Below, piece after piece: positions 7,522 to 20,949 of a stretch of 20,949 nt of DNA. The stretch comes from a virus. The translations under genes and the position numbers were made by a program. The notes under the pieces were generated by a model. It was given only the letters and a program-made list of their open reading frames with translations, was not told the origin of the DNA and searched no databases. How positions within the stretch are numbered: position 1 is the first letter of the stretch; the number at the start of each line of letters is the position of its first letter. Location of the stretch: positions 1 through 20,949 of the IMG/VR virus record IMGVR_UViG_3300010883_000632. One strand, given 5' to 3'.

Positions 7522-8049
7522 CTATTTCTTACCTTTCTTTGGCTTTTTCTTTGTCTCTTCATTAAACGAGTCGATGTCTTTTTCGCTAATCCCGATGTGC
7601 TTCCTGTAGTGGTTCTCAGCAGCGTCAGGATCACCGTACATGTCTTTCACATCGGAATACATGTTATGGATACCATGTTTCTCATATGCTTTAAATTTGA
7701 TATAAGTCTGCTTTTTTTCCTTCTTGATTCTTCGAAGAAACGCATAGTATATAATCTGTGTGACATATGCAAACGCATTGGTGGATTTGGCAGTATCAAA
7801 ATTCGTGATATAGGTCAGGCAGTTTTCCACGCCGTCGAGTATCATCTCATCACGATAACTATAGTTTATGAAATTTGGTCTGTATGCAAAGCGTGTTGCA
7901 ATTTCAAGGATCATTGAACCCAGCGCGTCCGTCATTTGTGGCTTTGGTTCTTCTTTTTCGTCTGCTTCCGCACATCGCGCCTTGTGCGACATGATTTCTT
8001 TGACTAACTCTTCATTATCTACGTAATGAGTTGATTTTTTCTTTGGCAT
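7522..8049 (-). CDS. 55: Late-transcription sigma factor gp55
   Basis: gp55 replaces the host sigma factor and directs RNA polymerase to the TATAAATA boxes of late promoters. The conserved region-2-like core spans residues about 57-112, with RPNFINYSYRDEMILDGVEN and AFAYVTQIIYYAFLRRIKKE, the typical hallmark of phage gp55 proteins. Length (175 aa) is close to T4 gp55. The tail is poly-lysine (KKKPKKGKK), and I see no short hydrophobic C-terminal motif of the kind T4 gp55 uses to bind the sliding clamp. Matching TATAAATA boxes occur at four places in this window, which supports the assignment. GGAG about 11 bases upstream is a plausible ribosome binding site. Confidence 0.93.
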   Translation of the reverse strand: MPKKKSTHYVDNEELVKEIMSHKARCAEADEKEEPKPQMTDALGSMILEIATRFAYRPNFINYSYRDEMILDGVENCLTYITNFDTAKSTNAFAYVTQIIYYAFLRRIKKEKKQTYIKFKAYEKHGIHNMYSDVKDMYGDPDAAENHYRKHIGISEKDIDSFNEETKKKPKKGKK

Positions 8050-11759: not shown

Positions 11760-11767
11760 TATTTATA
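11760..11767 (-). promoter_or_regulatory. Late promoter box TATAAATA (proximal)
   Basis: Exact T4-type late promoter -10 element on the - strand, the target of gp55. It ends 8 bases before the preferred start codon of the tail-tube-like gene, and no Shine-Dalgarno sequence lies between. A transcript from here would begin at or just before the ATG. If the upstream ATG at 11796 were used, this box would be internal to the gene. Confidence 0.6.
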
Positions 11768-11834: not shown

Positions 11835-11842
11835 TATTTATA
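11835..11842 (-). promoter_or_regulatory. Late promoter box TATAAATA (distal)
   Basis: A second exact copy of the late element, 75 bases upstream of the first and 83 bases before the 11751 ATG. A transcript from here would have a normal leader that includes GGTGGGG, though that sequence is about 30 bases from the ATG. The tandem arrangement in front of a virion gene supports late expression. Confidence 0.6.
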
Positions 11843-13762: not shown

Positions 13763-14052
13763 TTTGAATCCTTTGTTCGTGCTGCAATGGCATCAGCAAT
13801 AACACCCACCGTTCCTGTGTCTACTGGGTATGTCGAAGAGTACACCTGATTACATGCGACCTGCTCACAGGCGGCCCTCTCTGCTTCTACAGCCTTTTTC
13901 AGTGCTGCATTGATAACCTCGTTGGTAATTATCCAGCACTCTTCGTTATGCTCTTTCTGATCGAGTCCCTCGGTCTCTAACTTCCGGACTCGTTGCCGAA
14001 TCTCAATCGCGGCATCTGATAATCGTATTTGATCTTTTTCTTCTGGTTTCAT
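13759..14052 (-). CDS. Small unknown phage protein, 97 aa
   Basis: It is joined to both neighbours by ATGA overlaps (14049-14052 and 13759-13762). The protein is helical and charged (SDAAIEIRQRVRKLETEG; AALKKAVEAERAACEQVA) and ends in AIAARTKDSK. The pattern 'AxxxERxACxxVA ... IxxAIxAR' is very common in small uncharacterised phage proteins. Function unknown. Confidence 0.75.
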   Translation of the reverse strand: MKPEEKDQIRLSDAAIEIRQRVRKLETEGLDQKEHNEECWIITNEVINAALKKAVEAERAACEQVACNQVYSSTYPVDTGTVGVIADAIAARTKDSK

Positions 14053-14897
14053 TTTGTTTCCATCTTGGTCACTTTGAATCCTTTGTGACTCTTGTATTTT
14101 CCGTTTGCTACTCTACTCATGTTACCCTGATCGAGCATATGTCCTTTACAGAACTCTCTTAGGTTCGTTGAGTTTATTATCGTCCCATCGGGAAATGTGA
14201 TTCGGTATCTAGTCTTCTGCATAGCAAGACTCTGCTTATTCTTGGTCTCTTCGCTGTGGGTTTTACCTAGCATCGGCCCTTTACCGAACTGATGATTATT
14301 CTCACCCGTCAATTTTCCTTTTCGAGACTCTGATATAAGAGCCTTAGATTTTTCACTATGTTTTCTTCCTGTCCATGGATGTGTTTTTCGTTTCTTTGCA
14401 GCATCGCTCATCCTTTTCCTAGACTCTTCTGAAAACACCTTGTCTTTATTGGCTCCCACTTTACCATACATGGGATTCTTTGACCCCATCATACCATCAC
14501 TCAGCTTTTTTCGATGTTCCTTAGTAAACGTTCTTCCAGTGTTGGCTTTCCGTATCAAATCCTTGGTTGCCTCTGTATGCTCCGTGATAGCGCCACCGCC
14601 CTTGTCTGTGTTGACAAGTGTTCCTGTGTTGATATTCTTCCTACCAATCTGAGCAATCCATTTTTCCTCTTGGTCATACGCATCTTCTGATGTTAGATCA
14701 CCTTCTATTATAACAGATATCGGCTTCATGTCAATGGATTTTAGTTTACCAATGATGTTTTTGCACCATTTGGTCCTAGTGGAGAAATCTTTGTATCTGT
14801 CTCCTGATCCTTTGCCGATGTAAAATGGCTCATGTGAGAACTCAGAGTTGGTCGTGGGTTTTCGCGGGTCCAAAAGTGCGTAGACATAGTGATTCAT
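14049..14897 (-). CDS. Free-standing GIY-YIG homing endonuclease (Seg-like) with NUMOD repeats
   Basis: Homing endonucleases cut phage DNA lacking the gene and spread by repair. The catalytic domain shows YVY (4-6), FYIGKGSGDR (25-34) with the conserved Arg, an acidic pair in DQEEKWIAQIG (75-85) that should include the catalytic Glu, and LVNTDKGGG (94-102). Next come several NUMOD3-like DNA-binding repeats: GSKNPMYGK, HPWTGRKHSEKSK, GENNHQFGKGPMLGKTHSEE. A C-terminal NUMOD1-like segment (LREFCKGHMLDQGNMSRV, then GKYKSHKGFKV) completes 282 residues. There is no intron around it. AAAGGAAC precedes the ATG, and the gene leads its own operon behind the gp23 terminator. T4 segD has the same position after gene 23. 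Confidence 0.9.
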   Translation of the reverse strand: MNHYVYALLDPRKPTTNSEFSHEPFYIGKGSGDRYKDFSTRTKWCKNIIGKLKSIDMKPISVIIEGDLTSEDAYDQEEKWIAQIGRKNINTGTLVNTDKGGGAITEHTEATKDLIRKANTGRTFTKEHRKKLSDGMMGSKNPMYGKVGANKDKVFSEESRKRMSDAAKKRKTHPWTGRKHSEKSKALISESRKGKLTGENNHQFGKGPMLGKTHSEETKNKQSLAMQKTRYRITFPDGTIINSTNLREFCKGHMLDQGNMSRVANGKYKSHKGFKVTKMETK

Positions 14898-15022: not shown

Positions 15023-16273
15023 TCACATGAGATTCTCTACCCTAAAAATTCTGTAGTACTGATTTGTGTTGTTCGTAGGAGTAGGCGAGCTACTTACGAA
15101 TGGATTTGTTGCAACACCATATCGCGTTTTGAAGGCGATTTTTGGTTGAAAATTACTTTCACCAACGGCACGCACCAACTGTAACGGAACGTAAGGGCAA
15201 TAAAAGAAACCAGCGTCATACGGAGTGCTTCCCTTGTACCCAACGGTAACATATTCGTTACCAGCGGAACTTGAGAAATACGGATCAATGTAAACCTTCG
15301 TGCGACCATTCAGAGTACCAGCAAAGGTATTCCCAGTGTCATCAACGTTCAGGTTTGTATTCAGAGCAGGGTTGTAATCCAGAACACCAGCCATACTCAG
15401 AGCAGAAGCAACATCGGATGAGCAAAGGATTAGATTACCTTTACCCCTACGAGTTTCTTTTGCAATTTGATTGGCATCGCGTTCGATTTGGAAAATCAGT
15501 CCCTTGAATCGTTCGACAGACCATCGTCCGTTTGAGTCGGTATCGAGGTCAAAGCGTCCTGCGTTAGTCGTGTTAGTCTGTGCGCCTTTCTTGGAGATCG
15601 CATTGACAAGACGAATGATTTCACGATTGATTTCTGCAAGAATTTCAGCAGAAAGGATATTCGCAAGTTCGGCTTCGGTGTCAAGTCCATGAATCGCTTT
15701 CATGTCTTGGGCGAGTTCAGTTGAGTATTCGGCTTTCAAAGCACGAGTCTTTGCAGTTACCGTTACTTTGGAAATACCAACTGCCATTTCAGGAGTGACA
15801 TTACCTTCTTTGTTCGCAGTCGTGTCAGCAGAACCGATAACGGAAGCTTGAGTAGCATTACCGTATCGAGTTGCGTCTGTTGCGACTGAAGAAAGGGGAT
15901 CAGTACCAGCGTGAGTACCCGTACCTGTGAAGTCGGTATCGGCTTCGTCGAACAGAGCTTCAGTACCACCTTGCGATGTGTAATAACTCTTCAGTGCGAA
16001 GATAAGTCCTGTAGGACCGCTCATGGGCTGAACACCAACAAGGTCATACGCGATCAGATTCGGCATGGCTCTACGAACCAGACTGATCAGCACCGGGTCC
16101 CAGTTTGACACACCACCAGCAATGTTAGCTGGCTCGCCGGCTTCTGTCATGAACATTTCTTGGTTTTCAAGAATCTGTGCAGTACAGGCTCTTCGGTAGT
16201 GGTCTTTAATATCTGGAAGTTCTGGGTGATTCAGAAGTTCGGACCATTTTTCTGTTAGCATATCAGTTGACAT
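15023..16273 (-). CDS. 23: Major capsid protein gp23
   Basis: This is the T4-type hexamer-forming shell protein. Recognisable segments: ANIAGGVSNWDPVLISLVRR (49-68) and AMPNLIAYDLVGVQPMSGPT (69-88), which matches T4 gp23 'AIPNLIAFDICGVQPMNSPTG'. At 416 aa it is shorter than T4 gp23 (about 520). By alignment with T4 the gp21 cleavage site is probably MTE/AGEP after residue 44. A late promoter TATAAATA is 38 bases upstream and AAGGGAGAG (16282-16290) is the ribosome binding site. The terminator follows the stop. T4 gene 24 does not follow; the GIY-YIG cassette does. Confidence 0.97.
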   Translation of the reverse strand: MSTDMLTEKWSELLNHPELPDIKDHYRRACTAQILENQEMFMTEAGEPANIAGGVSNWDPVLISLVRRAMPNLIAYDLVGVQPMSGPTGLIFALKSYYTSQGGTEALFDEADTDFTGTGTHAGTDPLSSVATDATRYGNATQASVIGSADTTANKEGNVTPEMAVGISKVTVTAKTRALKAEYSTELAQDMKAIHGLDTEAELANILSAEILAEINREIIRLVNAISKKGAQTNTTNAGRFDLDTDSNGRWSVERFKGLIFQIERDANQIAKETRRGKGNLILCSSDVASALSMAGVLDYNPALNTNLNVDDTGNTFAGTLNGRTKVYIDPYFSSSAGNEYVTVGYKGSTPYDAGFFYCPYVPLQLVRAVGESNFQPKIAFKTRYGVATNPFVSSSPTPTNNTNQYYRIFRVENLM

Positions 16274-16311: not shown

Positions 16312-16319
16312 TATTTATA
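16312..16319 (-). promoter_or_regulatory. Late promoter box TATAAATA of gene 23
   Basis: Exact T4 late element on the - strand in the gp22-gp23 gap. It stands 38 bases before the gp23 ATG, leaving room for a leader with a strong AAGGGAGAG site. This is the best formed late promoter in the window. Confidence 0.85.
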
Positions 16320-16332
16320 AAATATTGTTTTT

Positions 16333-17346
16333 CTAGACTTGGTTATGTGCGCGTGCCAGATTACCTGAAACCCGCATTGCAGCCTTCATGTTCTTGGACA
16401 TATTTGTAGTAACGTCTGAGTTGTGATCTTCTTCGTTGAGGTCTTGAAGTTCATCACCGGCATCGGTTGTAGAAGTGCTGCTTGATCCAAAGAACTTACC
16501 TTTGATGATGTCCATCTTTTCAACAAGCTGTGCTTCATTATCGTATGAGATACCTTCAACAAGCTTTGCAAACTTGAGTTTGTCTGTTTCGGTGAGTTCA
16601 CCAGCGTTTTCTTCGATAATATTGCTCATGCGGCATTTCGTGTATTTCTTTGAGATGCTGATGTTGTTGTTGAGAAGTTCTTTGACTTGCTCTTCGAGCG
16701 ATTCGTTTTTGGTCATTAGTTCACTGACGGCATCTACTTTTTCTTCCGGAATTTCGATGTAGTGATTTTCAAAGAGTTCTTTGAGTCCGTTGATGAAACT
16801 TTCAGTAACCTCTGTGCGGATACCAGCTTCGACAGCGACTTCATTTTCCTTCATCCACTCTTCGGTGACATAGCTTAGATAGTCATCTACACGCTCTGAG
16901 AGCGTATCTTTGATGTCTTCTGTTGCTTCTTCAAGAGCAGACTCGTACTGTTCTGCAATCTTGTTGACTTCTTCTTCGATTTTGTTTTTTACGACTACTT
17001 CGAAGATCGTGCCAGCACGTTGTTTGAATTCATCAGAGAAATCTTCTTCACCTTCGAAAAGGCTCTGGACATCAACGTCGATGTCGATGTCTTCTGATTT
17101 AACTTTCTTGACAACAGCTTTTTCACCGCCGTCTTTGTCTGCTGAACCACGTTTCTTGGTTTTCTTTACAGAATCCCCGGCTTCGTCACCTACGTCAAGG
17201 TTCTTTTGCTGTGCTTCAAAACTGGCTTCATCACCCGCTGATCCGCCGAGGTCGTCCTCTTTTTCTGCTGGATCATCCGAATCGATGCTATCAATTTTTT
17301 CGCCGCTTGCCTTGTCACCTTTTCGTTTAGTTGCTGTTTTTGGCAT
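16333..17346 (-). CDS. 22: Prohead core scaffolding protein gp22
   Basis: gp22 forms the inner core around which the prohead assembles and is then degraded by gp21. The assignment rests on position between protease and major capsid genes and on composition: highly acidic, Lys-rich and helical, with long coiled-coil stretches (about 105-225) and a C-terminal part with ENAGELTETDKLKFAKLVEG and MSKNMKAAMRVSGNLARA, which resembles the conserved end of T4-type gp22. Length is 337 aa versus about 270 in T4; the extra lies in the charged N-terminal 90 residues. LFE/GE at 96-100 fits the gp21 cleavage rule. A late promoter box precedes it. Confidence 0.88.
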   Translation of the reverse strand: MPKTATKRKGDKASGEKIDSIDSDDPAEKEDDLGGSAGDEASFEAQQKNLDVGDEAGDSVKKTKKRGSADKDGGEKAVVKKVKSEDIDIDVDVQSLFEGEEDFSDEFKQRAGTIFEVVVKNKIEEEVNKIAEQYESALEEATEDIKDTLSERVDDYLSYVTEEWMKENEVAVEAGIRTEVTESFINGLKELFENHYIEIPEEKVDAVSELMTKNESLEEQVKELLNNNISISKKYTKCRMSNIIEENAGELTETDKLKFAKLVEGISYDNEAQLVEKMDIIKGKFFGSSSTSTTDAGDELQDLNEEDHNSDVTTNMSKNMKAAMRVSGNLARAHNQV

Positions 17347-17401: not shown

Positions 17402-17409
17402 TATTTATA
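17402..17409 (-). promoter_or_regulatory. Late promoter box TATAAATA of gene 22
   Basis: Exact late element on the - strand in the gp21-gp22 gap, 55 bases before the gp22 ATG. ACAGGAC in the leader is the likely ribosome binding site. Confidence 0.8.
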
Positions 17410-17420
17410 TAAAATTGTTT

Positions 17421-18077
17421 TTATAGACTCTTTAAGAAGTCCTCAAATACGGATATTTTTGCTTTATCCAAGTTTCTTTTTGGAGTTTTGGTGATTATGT
17501 TCTTCCAGTTGTCTATTTTTCGCTCGATCAACGCTCCGCCAGTTGTATAAACCCATTCCCGATCTTCCATAACGCCACGAACAAAGGCATCTGGTGCGGA
17601 AGGATCAGCCACGATGTCAGCAGGAGTAGCGAGAAAATAATCGTCTTGGACATAATTCACTCCCTGTTTTTCTTGAAGAGAACCCACGCCACGAGACGAT
17701 ACACCTAGTTTTGCACCTTCATCGATGAGTGTTTTGACAATCTCTCCATTTGGAGTACCGACAATTTTTGCTCTTCCGAGATAATCATTTCCTTCTGCCT
17801 TCAGGGAGACGATCATATGAGAAACAAGAGGAAGATTGACTGTCGGATTCTCAGGATGTCCTAGTTCTCCGAAGCCTCTTTTTTCGTTCATGTATTCCTT
17901 GACGTATCTGTTGACTTCTCGTTCGAGAATTCTCTTAGGATATACGCGACCATTGCGGTTTTTCTGTTCTGCTTGGAGAAAGATACCTTCGATGAAATAG
18001 TTTTTCTTTTCACCCGTCTTTGAGTCTTCCTCGACAAGTATACTTACGTCTTGGATTTGTTCTGTTATTAAATGCAT
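17421..18077 (-). CDS. 21: Prohead core protease gp21
   Basis: gp21 is the serine protease that matures the prohead by cutting the scaffold and capsid proteins. The conserved histidine lies in GFGELGHPENP (H74), the serine in GVSSRG (S127 or S128), and the following DIVADPSAPDAF (154-165) is the usual third region. FIEGIFLQAEQKNRNGRVYP (28-47) is also typical of T4-type proheads. The length of 218 aa equals the T4 enzyme. AAGGAA precedes the ATG. It stands directly before gene 22, the standard T4 order. Confidence 0.95.
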   Translation of the reverse strand: MHLITEQIQDVSILVEEDSKTGEKKNYFIEGIFLQAEQKNRNGRVYPKRILEREVNRYVKEYMNEKRGFGELGHPENPTVNLPLVSHMIVSLKAEGNDYLGRAKIVGTPNGEIVKTLIDEGAKLGVSSRGVGSLQEKQGVNYVQDDYFLATPADIVADPSAPDAFVRGVMEDREWVYTTGGALIERKIDNWKNIITKTPKRNLDKAKISVFEDFLKSL

Positions 18078-18086
18078 GTGCTTTCC

Positions 18087-18539
18087 TTATGTGCTACTAG
18101 AACTACTACTAGAGCTAACATATTCAAATCCAGAAACTTTGTGTACCTCAAGAAGTACGGTGTAGTTGTCTCCGGATACAAAGCCTGTTGTTGTCAGTAG
18201 GATATCCCCTGAAGGACTCGCAGCATTGTTGAGTAGTGGTGGCAGTCCCATTGTATTGAGATTCCATGTACCATTTCCATTTAACGTCATAATGGGTTCG
18301 TCTGGCGATCCATCCCAATATAACGTGATCGTTTTAGCCGCAGTAGGTCCACCCGATGTCCATATCACAGACACAATGGACAGTACTTCATCCCCGGTAC
18401 TTCCCGGCTCTGACAGCGCAGACGCATCGATAATCGTTACCGCCGCGTCATTACCAGCACCATCATTAAGCCGCAGGGCTTTCACCACGGCTCTTTTTGT
18501 TGCGTCTATAATGGTTTGAGTTTCTTGGACGTTTGCCAT
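18087..18539 (-). CDS. Small virion-type protein with poly-Ser tail, paralogue of the next gene's C-terminal domain
   Basis: The 150-residue protein is beta-rich and ends in nine serines and a Thr. Residues 30-137 align with residues 250-346 of the 350-aa protein upstream: DASALS/DASSLS, VIW/LIW, YWDGSPD/SWDGTPD, MTLNGNG/MTLNGGG, SGDILL/TGDLLV, VSGDNY/GSGDTY, HKVSG/RKVSG. I recall similar small proteins with an 'xWDxxxD...GxG...GDI' pattern beside structural genes of marine phages, without known function. Its place just before gp21 and its fold suggest a virion or capsid-decoration role (inference). AGAGGGA is the ribosome binding site; a near-late box TCTAAATA precedes it. Confidence 0.8.
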   Translation of the reverse strand: MANVQETQTIIDATKRAVVKALRLNDGAGNDAAVTIIDASALSEPGSTGDEVLSIVSVIWTSGGPTAAKTITLYWDGSPDEPIMTLNGNGTWNLNTMGLPPLLNNAASPSGDILLTTTGFVSGDNYTVLLEVHKVSGFEYVSSSSSSSST

Positions 18540-18558
18540 ATCGGGAATCCCTCTTATC

Positions 18559-18566
18559 TATTTAGA
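18559..18566 (-). promoter_or_regulatory. Near-consensus late promoter box TCTAAATA
   Basis: It differs from TATAAATA in one base and lies in the short gap before the 150-aa gene, 19 bases from its ATG, with AGAGGGA in between. A single-mismatch 8-mer can occur by chance; the intergenic position is the support. Confidence 0.4.
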
Positions 18567-18569
18567 AAA

Positions 18570-19622
18570 TTACGATTGTACGTATCCGGATACTTTCCGT
18601 AAATGGATCACAATCTCGTATGTATCACCAGAACCGAAGTTCTCTTTGGATACCAGAAGATCGCCGGTAGGCGAACTCGCATCATTTGGTATTGTAAACC
18701 CATTAAATGTGAATTTCCCTCCACCATTTAACGTCATTGATACTTTATCCGGTGTTCCGTCCCATGATAACTTCAGCGTTCCACTTCCACTAATATTCCA
18801 TATCAACTGAGTTATTGTCAGTCGTGGATCAACATCTGCTGAACTCAACGATGATGCATCGACCAAATCTACAGGAGAAGAGTCGGTTCCCTCAAAGAAC
18901 ACGATGGCATCTCTGAAGGTATCTCGCACCGTCTGAATGTCAACGACACTCTGGGACGAACTGGACGAACTGGATGAAGAGTTGTCTGATTGACTGGATG
19001 AAGAACTCTGAGATGAAGCTGAACTCTGAGATGAAGAACTTGAAGAACTTTGAGATGAACTGGATGAAGAATTTAAAGATGATGACGAACTCTCAGATGA
19101 GTCGGATGACGATGAAGAACTGTTATCCCCTGATGTATAGTGTACCTTTATCTGAACATGATCAACTTGTATAGAACCAAAGACGGCAATATCAAATCCA
19201 ACCGATACCCCAAATGTGCTTGCGTTTATGTCAGTGTCAGTCCATGTCTCTCCCCAGAGATCAGCCGCGCCACCAAAGTCGTATACAACATCGGAACCCG
19301 TAGTTGCCGTGGAGTTGTCGTTGGATGCGTCAGTGCTAATACTCCCACCCTTGACGATGCGAAGATACTTGAAAGCACCGGCACCCTTGCATTCGACTTT
19401 TACTTCGATTCCATTGATTGTTGCGCCACCGGGAACCGATGCACCAAAGGTCGTGCATTTAAGTCCGTGTGATTCGCTCGGCATCGGCGGCGCGTTAGCA
19501 TAATCATACGTGTCATTGGACGACCCGGCATTTCCTGTAGAGAATGATACCGAAGCACTACCATGCGGCGCATCTGTAACAGACGCTTCTGTACTCGGAG
19601 ATAACCAGCCAGTATCAGCCAT
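18570..19622 (-). CDS. Two-domain virion-type protein with long serine linker
   Basis: Three parts are visible. Residues 1-163 form a beta-sandwich-like domain with LKCTTFGASVPGGATINGIE (54-73), YDFGGAADLWGETWTDTDIN (114-133) and VDHVQIKVHYT (153-163); this 'GxxIPxxAxIxGIxV ... DLWG..WT..DIN...FGV' plan is common in phage and prophage virion proteins. Residues about 168-225 are almost only Ser with scattered Gln, Asp, Asn and Ala. Residues 228-350 are the domain shared with the 150-aa gene downstream. The serine codons are mixed. It probably decorates the head or forms a fibre-like appendage; no receptor-binding activity can be shown. It starts 3 bases after the previous stop, with AGGA 11 bases before the ATG. 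Confidence 0.8.
   Translation of the reverse strand: MADTGWLSPSTEASVTDAPHGSASVSFSTGNAGSSNDTYDYANAPPMPSESHGLKCTTFGASVPGGATINGIEVKVECKGAGAFKYLRIVKGGSISTDASNDNSTATTGSDVVYDFGGAADLWGETWTDTDINASTFGVSVGFDIAVFGSIQVDHVQIKVHYTSGDNSSSSSSDSSESSSSSLNSSSSSSQSSSSSSSQSSASSQSSSSSQSDNSSSSSSSSSQSVVDIQTVRDTFRDAIVFFEGTDSSPVDLVDASSLSSADVDPRLTITQLIWNISGSGTLKLSWDGTPDKVSMTLNGGGKFTFNGFTIPNDASSPTGDLLVSKENFGSGDTYEIVIHLRKVSGYVQS
18948..19121 (-). repeat. Serine-linker low-complexity repeat inside the 350-aa gene
   Basis: About 58 codons of degenerate tandem repeat, visible on the + strand as gaagaactctgagatgaa-like units of varying length. It encodes Ser blocks broken by Gln, Asp, Asn and Ala. TCA, TCT, TCC and AGT codons alternate, so the amino acid run is kept while the DNA copies have drifted. 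Such tracts can change length by slippage. Confidence 0.8.
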
Positions 19623-19625
19623 TAC

Positions 19626-20949
19626 TTATAGTCCTAGTTGCTTTCTTTTCTTCATAGCCTTTGATCGCTTCTTAGCCGCTTTCTTGGCTAGTCCGGGATT
19701 TGCTTTCTTTGTCAGTGCGGCTTTCTTTGCTCCGCGTATCCTTGCGAGTTTGGCTGCACCAGAAATTGCCTTGCATGATTTTGGTCCACTTCGTTTGAAT
19801 CCCTTCGGACACAGGACTTTCTTTGTGCGTTTTCCTTTTGAGTCAATTCTGATAACGGTGCGAGCCGCTTCCTTGATCGGTTTTCCTTTGTTCAGACGAT
19901 TGGCTGCGAGTTTCGAAAGAAACTTGACATCTCCACCGGCAAGTGCTTTGAGTTGTGACTTCGGCATCTTATCTAATATGGATATCATTTGCTTATAAAC
20001 AGGATCAGCCGGATCAATTTTGTCCAGAACATTAAATCTTGACTTTAGAGTCTTTATCATCTCCGGAGTAAAACTTTCATTGGGACCAAAACCTTTCGGT
20101 GTTCTGTCTGTGATCTTAAAGCCCTTTTTCTTATCGTCGTGCTTCTTGGCTAGTGCCATCAGTGTTTTAAGATGATCGGCTCTTTCTTTTCCTTTGAGTG
20201 TAGTCTTTCCTCTGTCTTTATCGACACCTTCGCTCTTCGTTGCGGTTTCGTATGCATCACACGTATAGCCTTTTTCAAATTCAAAGCTGAATTTAGAACA
20301 ATTCATCTCTCCGTCCTTGAATTTACATGCCATGCACTTTGTTCCGTCATCGGACTGCCTGTAATTGGGTGCGTCATCCTTGGATTCGACAATATCTGAG
20401 TTATTTGCAAACTCCAATACCTCTTCAATCCTTCCTTCATCAAGCATATGCATCATTTTCTCCTGCAAGTCAACTCGCAATTGAGAAAATAGAGATTCAA
20501 GCACCATGGCATGGTCTGCGTCATTAACATAAAGTGCGAACTTTTCCTCTGAAGTGTTTACTGCTTTGATGCGAATAGGATGATGCTTGGATGCAATCTT
20601 ATGATACTTGTCAACATCATCGACTGTTGATTTCACAACAAATTTTCCCTGTTCAGGAGAGACATTTCCCCCAACTTCGCTGGAAAATGTCTTGGCTTGT
20701 TTCTTTGTGTGAAAATCAGCGAACCACGTTCGTCCCTCTTCGAAGTCGTCTTCGTATATATGAACCTCAAGTTCTTCGTTGTTGTTATTGGGGTTTTGTG
20801 TTTTCCGTCTCGCATCCTTTTCCTTATCATCAAACTTTTTATCGTCTGATTTATTCTTGGCTTTGCGAATAAGATCGGAATATTTTCGTTCGTCTTTGAC
20901 CTTCTCTTGTTCTACGTCATCCTTGGCTCTCTGGGTGATTGGGTCTTCC
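19626..20949 (-). CDS. Unknown head-region protein, Cys motif and Lys-rich C-terminus (5' partial)
   Basis: The frame is open to the right edge; the GTG at 20636 is internal, since translation upstream gives natural sequence (EVHIYEDDFEEGRTWFADF). At least 440 residues are visible. The first ~60 are highly charged and coiled-coil-like, followed by a small folded domain and a four-cysteine motif CxxC-x8-C-x12-C (20259-20336; CMACKF, YTCDAY) that may bind zinc. The last 100 residues are very basic (LCPKGFKRSGPKSCK, KKAAKKRSKAMKKRKQLGL). In T4 the portal gene 20 and core genes 67 and 68 lie upstream of 21, so a prohead-core or portal-associated role is possible, but it is much larger than gp67 or gp68 and I do not recognise it. 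Confidence 0.75.
   Translation of the reverse strand, partial: EDPITQRAKDDVEQEKVKDERKYSDLIRKAKNKSDDKKFDDKEKDARRKTQNPNNNNEELEVHIYEDDFEEGRTWFADFHTKKQAKTFSSEVGGNVSPEQGKFVVKSTVDDVDKYHKIASKHHPIRIKAVNTSEEKFALYVNDADHAMVLESLFSQLRVDLQEKMMHMLDEGRIEEVLEFANNSDIVESKDDAPNYRQSDDGTKCMACKFKDGEMNCSKFSFEFEKGYTCDAYETATKSEGVDKDRGKTTLKGKERADHLKTLMALAKKHDDKKKGFKITDRTPKGFGPNESFTPEMIKTLKSRFNVLDKIDPADPVYKQMISILDKMPKSQLKALAGGDVKFLSKLAANRLNKGKPIKEAARTVIRIDSKGKRTKKVLCPKGFKRSGPKSCKAISGAAKLARIRGAKKAALTKKANPGLAKKAAKKRSKAMKKRKQLGL

Follow-up and report, generated by a model that had tools for sequence, protein, structure and literature searches.

Adjacent head-locus genes of a T4-like virus share a predicted jelly-roll domain and may encode decoration-type proteins, one of them with a Hoc-like display arm

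In bacteriophage T4, the C-terminal domain of Hoc anchors the protein to hexamers of gp23, and its N-terminal domains are variable; some phages, including PG7 and Muldoon, carry two Hoc genes (PMC10385173). Elsewhere in the T4 head locus, the interval between gp20 and gp21 is occupied by core genes 67 and 68. Here we describe a pair of genes from the same interval in a 20,949-base stretch of viral DNA (IMG/VR record IMGVR_UViG_3300010883_000632), which is referred to below as the window.

The minus strand of the window encodes, in order, a gp68-like prohead core protein, a 350-aa protein, a 150-aa protein, gp21, gp22 and gp23. The gp68-like gene (19626-20948; phrog_3503, E 1e-10; phrog_1049 at the C-terminus, E 7e-5; predicted pI 9.6) has its 5′ end past the contig. 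The 350-aa ORF (19622-18570) and the 150-aa ORF (18539-18087), both placed as in the preliminary description, are separated by 30 nt. Directly downstream lie the genes for the prohead protease gp21 (17421-18077; phrog_207, E 3e-77), the scaffold gp22 (16333-17346; phrog_237, PF25623) and the major capsid protein gp23 (15023-16273; phrog_138, E 1e-151), the last being closest to the capsid protein of Pelagibacter phage HTVC008M (65.6% identity). A homing endonuclease-like gene (14049-14897; phrog_314, phrog_2081) follows gp23. Exact copies of the late-promoter-like sequence TATAAATA occur four times on the minus strand against 0.69 expected (17402-17409, 16312-16319, 11835-11842 and 11760-11767), one lying 56 nt upstream of gp22, another 39 nt upstream of gp23 and the others in the vicinity of the tail tube gene; a late sigma factor gene is found at 7522-8049. 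A late promoter for the pair itself is a weak candidate: the sequence TCTAAATA that precedes the 150-aa gene has one mismatch, and 22 such sites occur where 21 are expected.

The preliminary description had proposed that the two proteins share a duplicated domain, present once as a fusion and once alone, and this proposal was borne out. BLASTP aligned the 350-aa and 150-aa proteins over 136 columns with 37.5% identity (E 4e-24), identity between the copies lying overall at 38-41%, and the BLOSUM62 local score of the two copies was 210, far above that of 1000 shuffles (mean 31, maximum 60). All seven motifs named at the outset occur in both proteins and in the same order (DASSLS/DASALS, LIW/VIW, WDGTPD/WDGSPD, MTLNGGG/MTLNGNG, GDLL/GDIL, SGDTY/SGDNY and KVSG). 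The stand-alone copy corresponds to residues 1-138 of the 150-aa protein (18126-18539, minus strand) and the fused copy to the C-terminal 125 residues of the 350-aa protein (226-350; 18573-18947, minus strand). A family HMM matches them with E-values of 4e-38 and 2e-35, respectively, and gene order places the domain immediately upstream of gp21. Judged from their sequences, the two domains are homologous, and a role in the head or virion is likely.

Homologous pairs of adjacent hypothetical proteins occupy this slot, directly ahead of gp21, in the Pelagibacter phages HTVC008M (AGE60420/AGE60421) and Mosig (Mosig_00040/Mosig_00039), the stand-alone window copy corresponding in position to AGE60421 and Mosig_00039. 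Unlike in the window, both copies in these phages are stand-alone, without a serine run and without an N-terminal module. Among loci in which both portal and gp21 are visible, most of them fetched via gp21, the domain lies between the two genes in 32 and is absent from 34; the median portal-gp21 interval measures 1,480 nt with the domain and 195 nt without it. One domain protein is present in 20 of the 32 positive loci, two in 11 and three in one. The domain was absent from the tested cyanophages S-RIM2, S-PM2, P-SSM2 and P-RSM4, and also from Melnitz and C48C1.

A second scan was keyed on the domain alone, using a closer family alignment and without conditioning on gp21. It returned at least 568 relatives among 600 stretches, from which 80 loci were kept. 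In 67 of these, gp21 follows downstream within 850 nt (within 150 nt in 54), and 44 loci encode two or three domain proteins (one in 36, two in 36, three in eight). Twelve of the remaining 13 loci belong to an unrelated head cluster, in which the portal is phrog_1216 and the capsid phrog_371; the thirteenth is truncated by a contig end. Wherever the contig reaches both genes, the domain in this second cluster lies between the capsid gene and what we read, from position and size, as the adaptor gene. The slot between capsid gene and adaptor is a usual place of decoration genes. In the public record ct2os315, a related capsid gene is likewise followed directly by a domain gene.

The profile search that the preliminary description had suggested as a check against phage virion proteins gave no such identification: none of 51 family members matched PHROGs, and only two isolated, marginal Pfam matches were obtained. 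Neither window protein had a sequence match in Pfam, PHROGs or the PDB, and neither did the 51-row family as a whole. Used alone as a protein query, the 150-aa sequence found no relative among viral contigs, the relatives having been reached via gp21, and a divergent family member found nothing among annotated phages. On sequence evidence, the domain family is widespread and has no name in the libraries searched. Several loci showed further peculiarities. Single proteins of about 252 aa (L084:1128-1886 and L087:2307-3062) each give two domain matches, perhaps from one domain with a large insert. One locus with the jelly-roll domain (L017:1717-4569) also encodes, between portal and a gp67-like gene, a collagen-like protein (498 aa, 54 G-x-y triplets) and a 303-aa protein without a PHROGs match. 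An apparently unrelated 82-aa protein fills the slot before gp21 in Methylophilales phage Melnitz-2 (L149:6696-6944), and a capsid gene is split over two overlapping frames at L209:1049-1950, possibly through a sequencing frameshift.

An AlphaFold2 (AF2) model of the 150-aa protein, built on the 51-row family alignment, is all-beta with nine strands (pLDDT 87.8, pTM 0.79), and its structural neighbours lead us to read the predicted fold as a single jelly roll; for the second copy (residues 226-350), the same fold is predicted by homology. Among viral predicted structures, the model most closely resembles uncharacterised proteins from uncultured phages (TM 0.78). Neighbours in the PDB are generic beta sandwiches and jelly rolls, weak matches to Ena subunits among them. 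They include two virus-head proteins, the HFTV1 turret (8qpg) and the PRD1 vertex protein P5 (1yq5), although these matches are weak (E 7e-3 to 8e-3, TMt 0.41-0.53) and express fold likeness only. Foldseek TM-scores on the query side stay under 0.5 against solved proteins (0.18-0.45 for the head domain), and fold similarity therefore does not settle function.

The remainder of the 350-aa protein consists of an N-terminal module (residues 1-164; 19131-19622, minus strand) and a 58-residue serine-rich linker (residues 168-225; 18948-19121, minus strand). The AF2 model of the module (pLDDT 93.7, pTM 0.89) is a jelly roll whose nearest PDB folds are CBM4, CBM22 and SGBP-B (E 2.6e-4 and up), and its top solved neighbours are mostly glycan-binding (CBM4, CBM22, CBM16, CBM35). 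Identity to CBM4, CBM22 and CBM35 is about 10-14%, with TM 0.37-0.47, and none of 45 members of the module family matched a Pfam profile, those of the CBM families included. About 50 loci in other phages encode relatives of the module, either by themselves or built into proteins as long as 1,900 residues; one forms the N-terminal part of a podovirus protein that carries the annotation tail tubular protein A. This distribution shows that the module is mobile among phage proteins. Across the loci of both scans, the window is the only gp21 locus that carries it, and the fusion of module, linker and head domain was seen in one contig only.

The serine run precedes the domain in the 350-aa protein and follows it in the 150-aa protein, where eight serines stand near the C-terminus (residues 142-149; 18093-18116, minus strand), as had been noticed at the outset. 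Serine codons in the long linker are mixed (TCA 15, AGT 11, TCT 11, TCC 6, TCG 4) and DNA-level repeats are weak (TRF scores up to 70), so that the run is probably maintained as protein rather than being a fresh repeat expansion. The head interval seems to be a recurrent site of poly-serine multi-domain proteins. On another T4-like contig (L090:1-3178), genes for proteins of 207 and 850 aa, in which long poly-serine linkers separate other domains, directly precede gp67/gp68-like genes and gp21.

The preliminary description had further pictured a tandem duplication that split at this locus into a fused and a stand-alone form. Nothing we found shows such an event; relatives carry one, two or three stand-alone copies in tandem, for which reason the fusion looks like a later capture of the mobile N-terminal module. 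The tree tends to group the 150-aa copy with those copies that adjoin gp21 in other phages (support 93/59) and leaves the 350-aa copy unplaced. Constraining the two window copies to group together cost 0.69 log units (AU p 0.28), and old and recent duplication are therefore both compatible with the data. The presence of pairs in the same slot of relatives favours an old duplication.

Genes placed between portal and protease need not encode decoration proteins; proteins of the neck, the vertex or the head interior could fit there too. The preliminary description had set the pair where T4 carries core genes 67 and 68. This holds for the interval, which is the same, but not as a replacement: the pair sits between the gp68-like gene and gp21 and so does not take the place of gene 68, while the place of gene 67 would fall beyond the contig end or inside the cut-off ORF. 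Pelagiphages likewise keep small gp67/68-like genes besides the domain pair. The prohead protease of T4 cleaves at I/L-x-E sites. The 350-aa protein has none and the 150-aa protein two, poorly placed, whereas the gp68-like protein has six such sites and gp22 has 16. Both proteins of the pair are acidic (pI 4.2; K+R 4-5%), which also sets them apart from the gp68-like and scaffold proteins, and predicted to be beta, and neither matches the gp67 or gp68 families in sequence, the gene at 19626-20948 doing so instead. Charge, composition and lack of protease sites disfavour internal core or scaffold-associated proteins like T4 gp67/gp68, as does the fact that phages with a different head type have the domain next to their capsid gene, and we regard such a role as improbable in spite of the shared interval.

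The location between portal and protease, together with the place of the domain directly ahead of the adaptor gene in the other phage group, would also fit proteins of the neck, portal vertex or head completion; the jelly roll would then bind at the collar or portal vertex, and the 350-aa form would be a collar adhesin or whisker. Searches gave no sequence match to known families of neck or completion proteins, however, and tandem copies together with absence from the tested cyanophages point to an accessory role rather than head completion; we consider this assignment rather unlikely. That the proteins are instead secreted or cytoplasmic adhesins that happen to be encoded in a head operon strikes us as very improbable. 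Such a role would agree with the lack of a match to any known virion family, and virion proteomics for family members were not found in the literature searched; against it stand the close and recurrent link to head genes, seen in two head clusters that are unrelated, and the occurrence of the N-terminal module within an annotated tail protein.

With moderate confidence, we favour the view that both are decoration-type head proteins built on one jelly-roll domain, the 350-aa form being a Hoc-like display arm. The link with gp21 in 67 of 80 loci, the capsid-adaptor slot elsewhere, the arrangement in ct2os315, the predicted jelly roll with its weak head-protein neighbours, the glycan-binding neighbours and wide occurrence of the N-terminal module, the acidic pI and the scarcity of I/L-x-E sites all support this view, in which presence in the virion and a site on the head are inferred. 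The 150-aa protein would be the plain form of a head-binding jelly-roll protein, and in the 350-aa protein the same domain would act as a C-terminal anchor on the head, from which the long, flexible serine-rich linker would hold the N-terminal module away, displayed outwards. As the module resembles sugar-binding modules, it may let the virus stick to cells or surfaces; its targets could be glycans on the host, on other cells or on marine particles. More tentatively, this unnamed head protein, common to two unrelated head lineages of aquatic phages, might serve generally as an anchor, its copies multiplying in tandem, and T4-like phages might add glycan-binding modules to it to build capsid display arms, independently of Hoc. 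If these readings are right, a common unannotated head protein would gain a name, and the cultured phages HTVC008M and Mosig would offer a target for structural work.

Decoration proteins with a display module are a known kind; the family and the architecture described here appear undescribed in the searchable libraries and papers, which leave out most subscription journals. The proposed 350-aa form resembles T4 Hoc, which binds at the centre of gp23 hexamers, in combining a conserved C-terminal anchor with variable N-terminal domains, and the two-gene pair of the window recalls the phages with two Hoc genes. It differs in that the presumed anchor is predicted to be a jelly roll and gave no sequence match in Pfam, PHROGs or the PDB. 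In place of a string of Ig domains, the 350-aa protein carries one CBM4/22-like module of 164 aa on a long serine linker. Together, these features could represent a second way in which evolution has arrived at capsid display of the Hoc kind.
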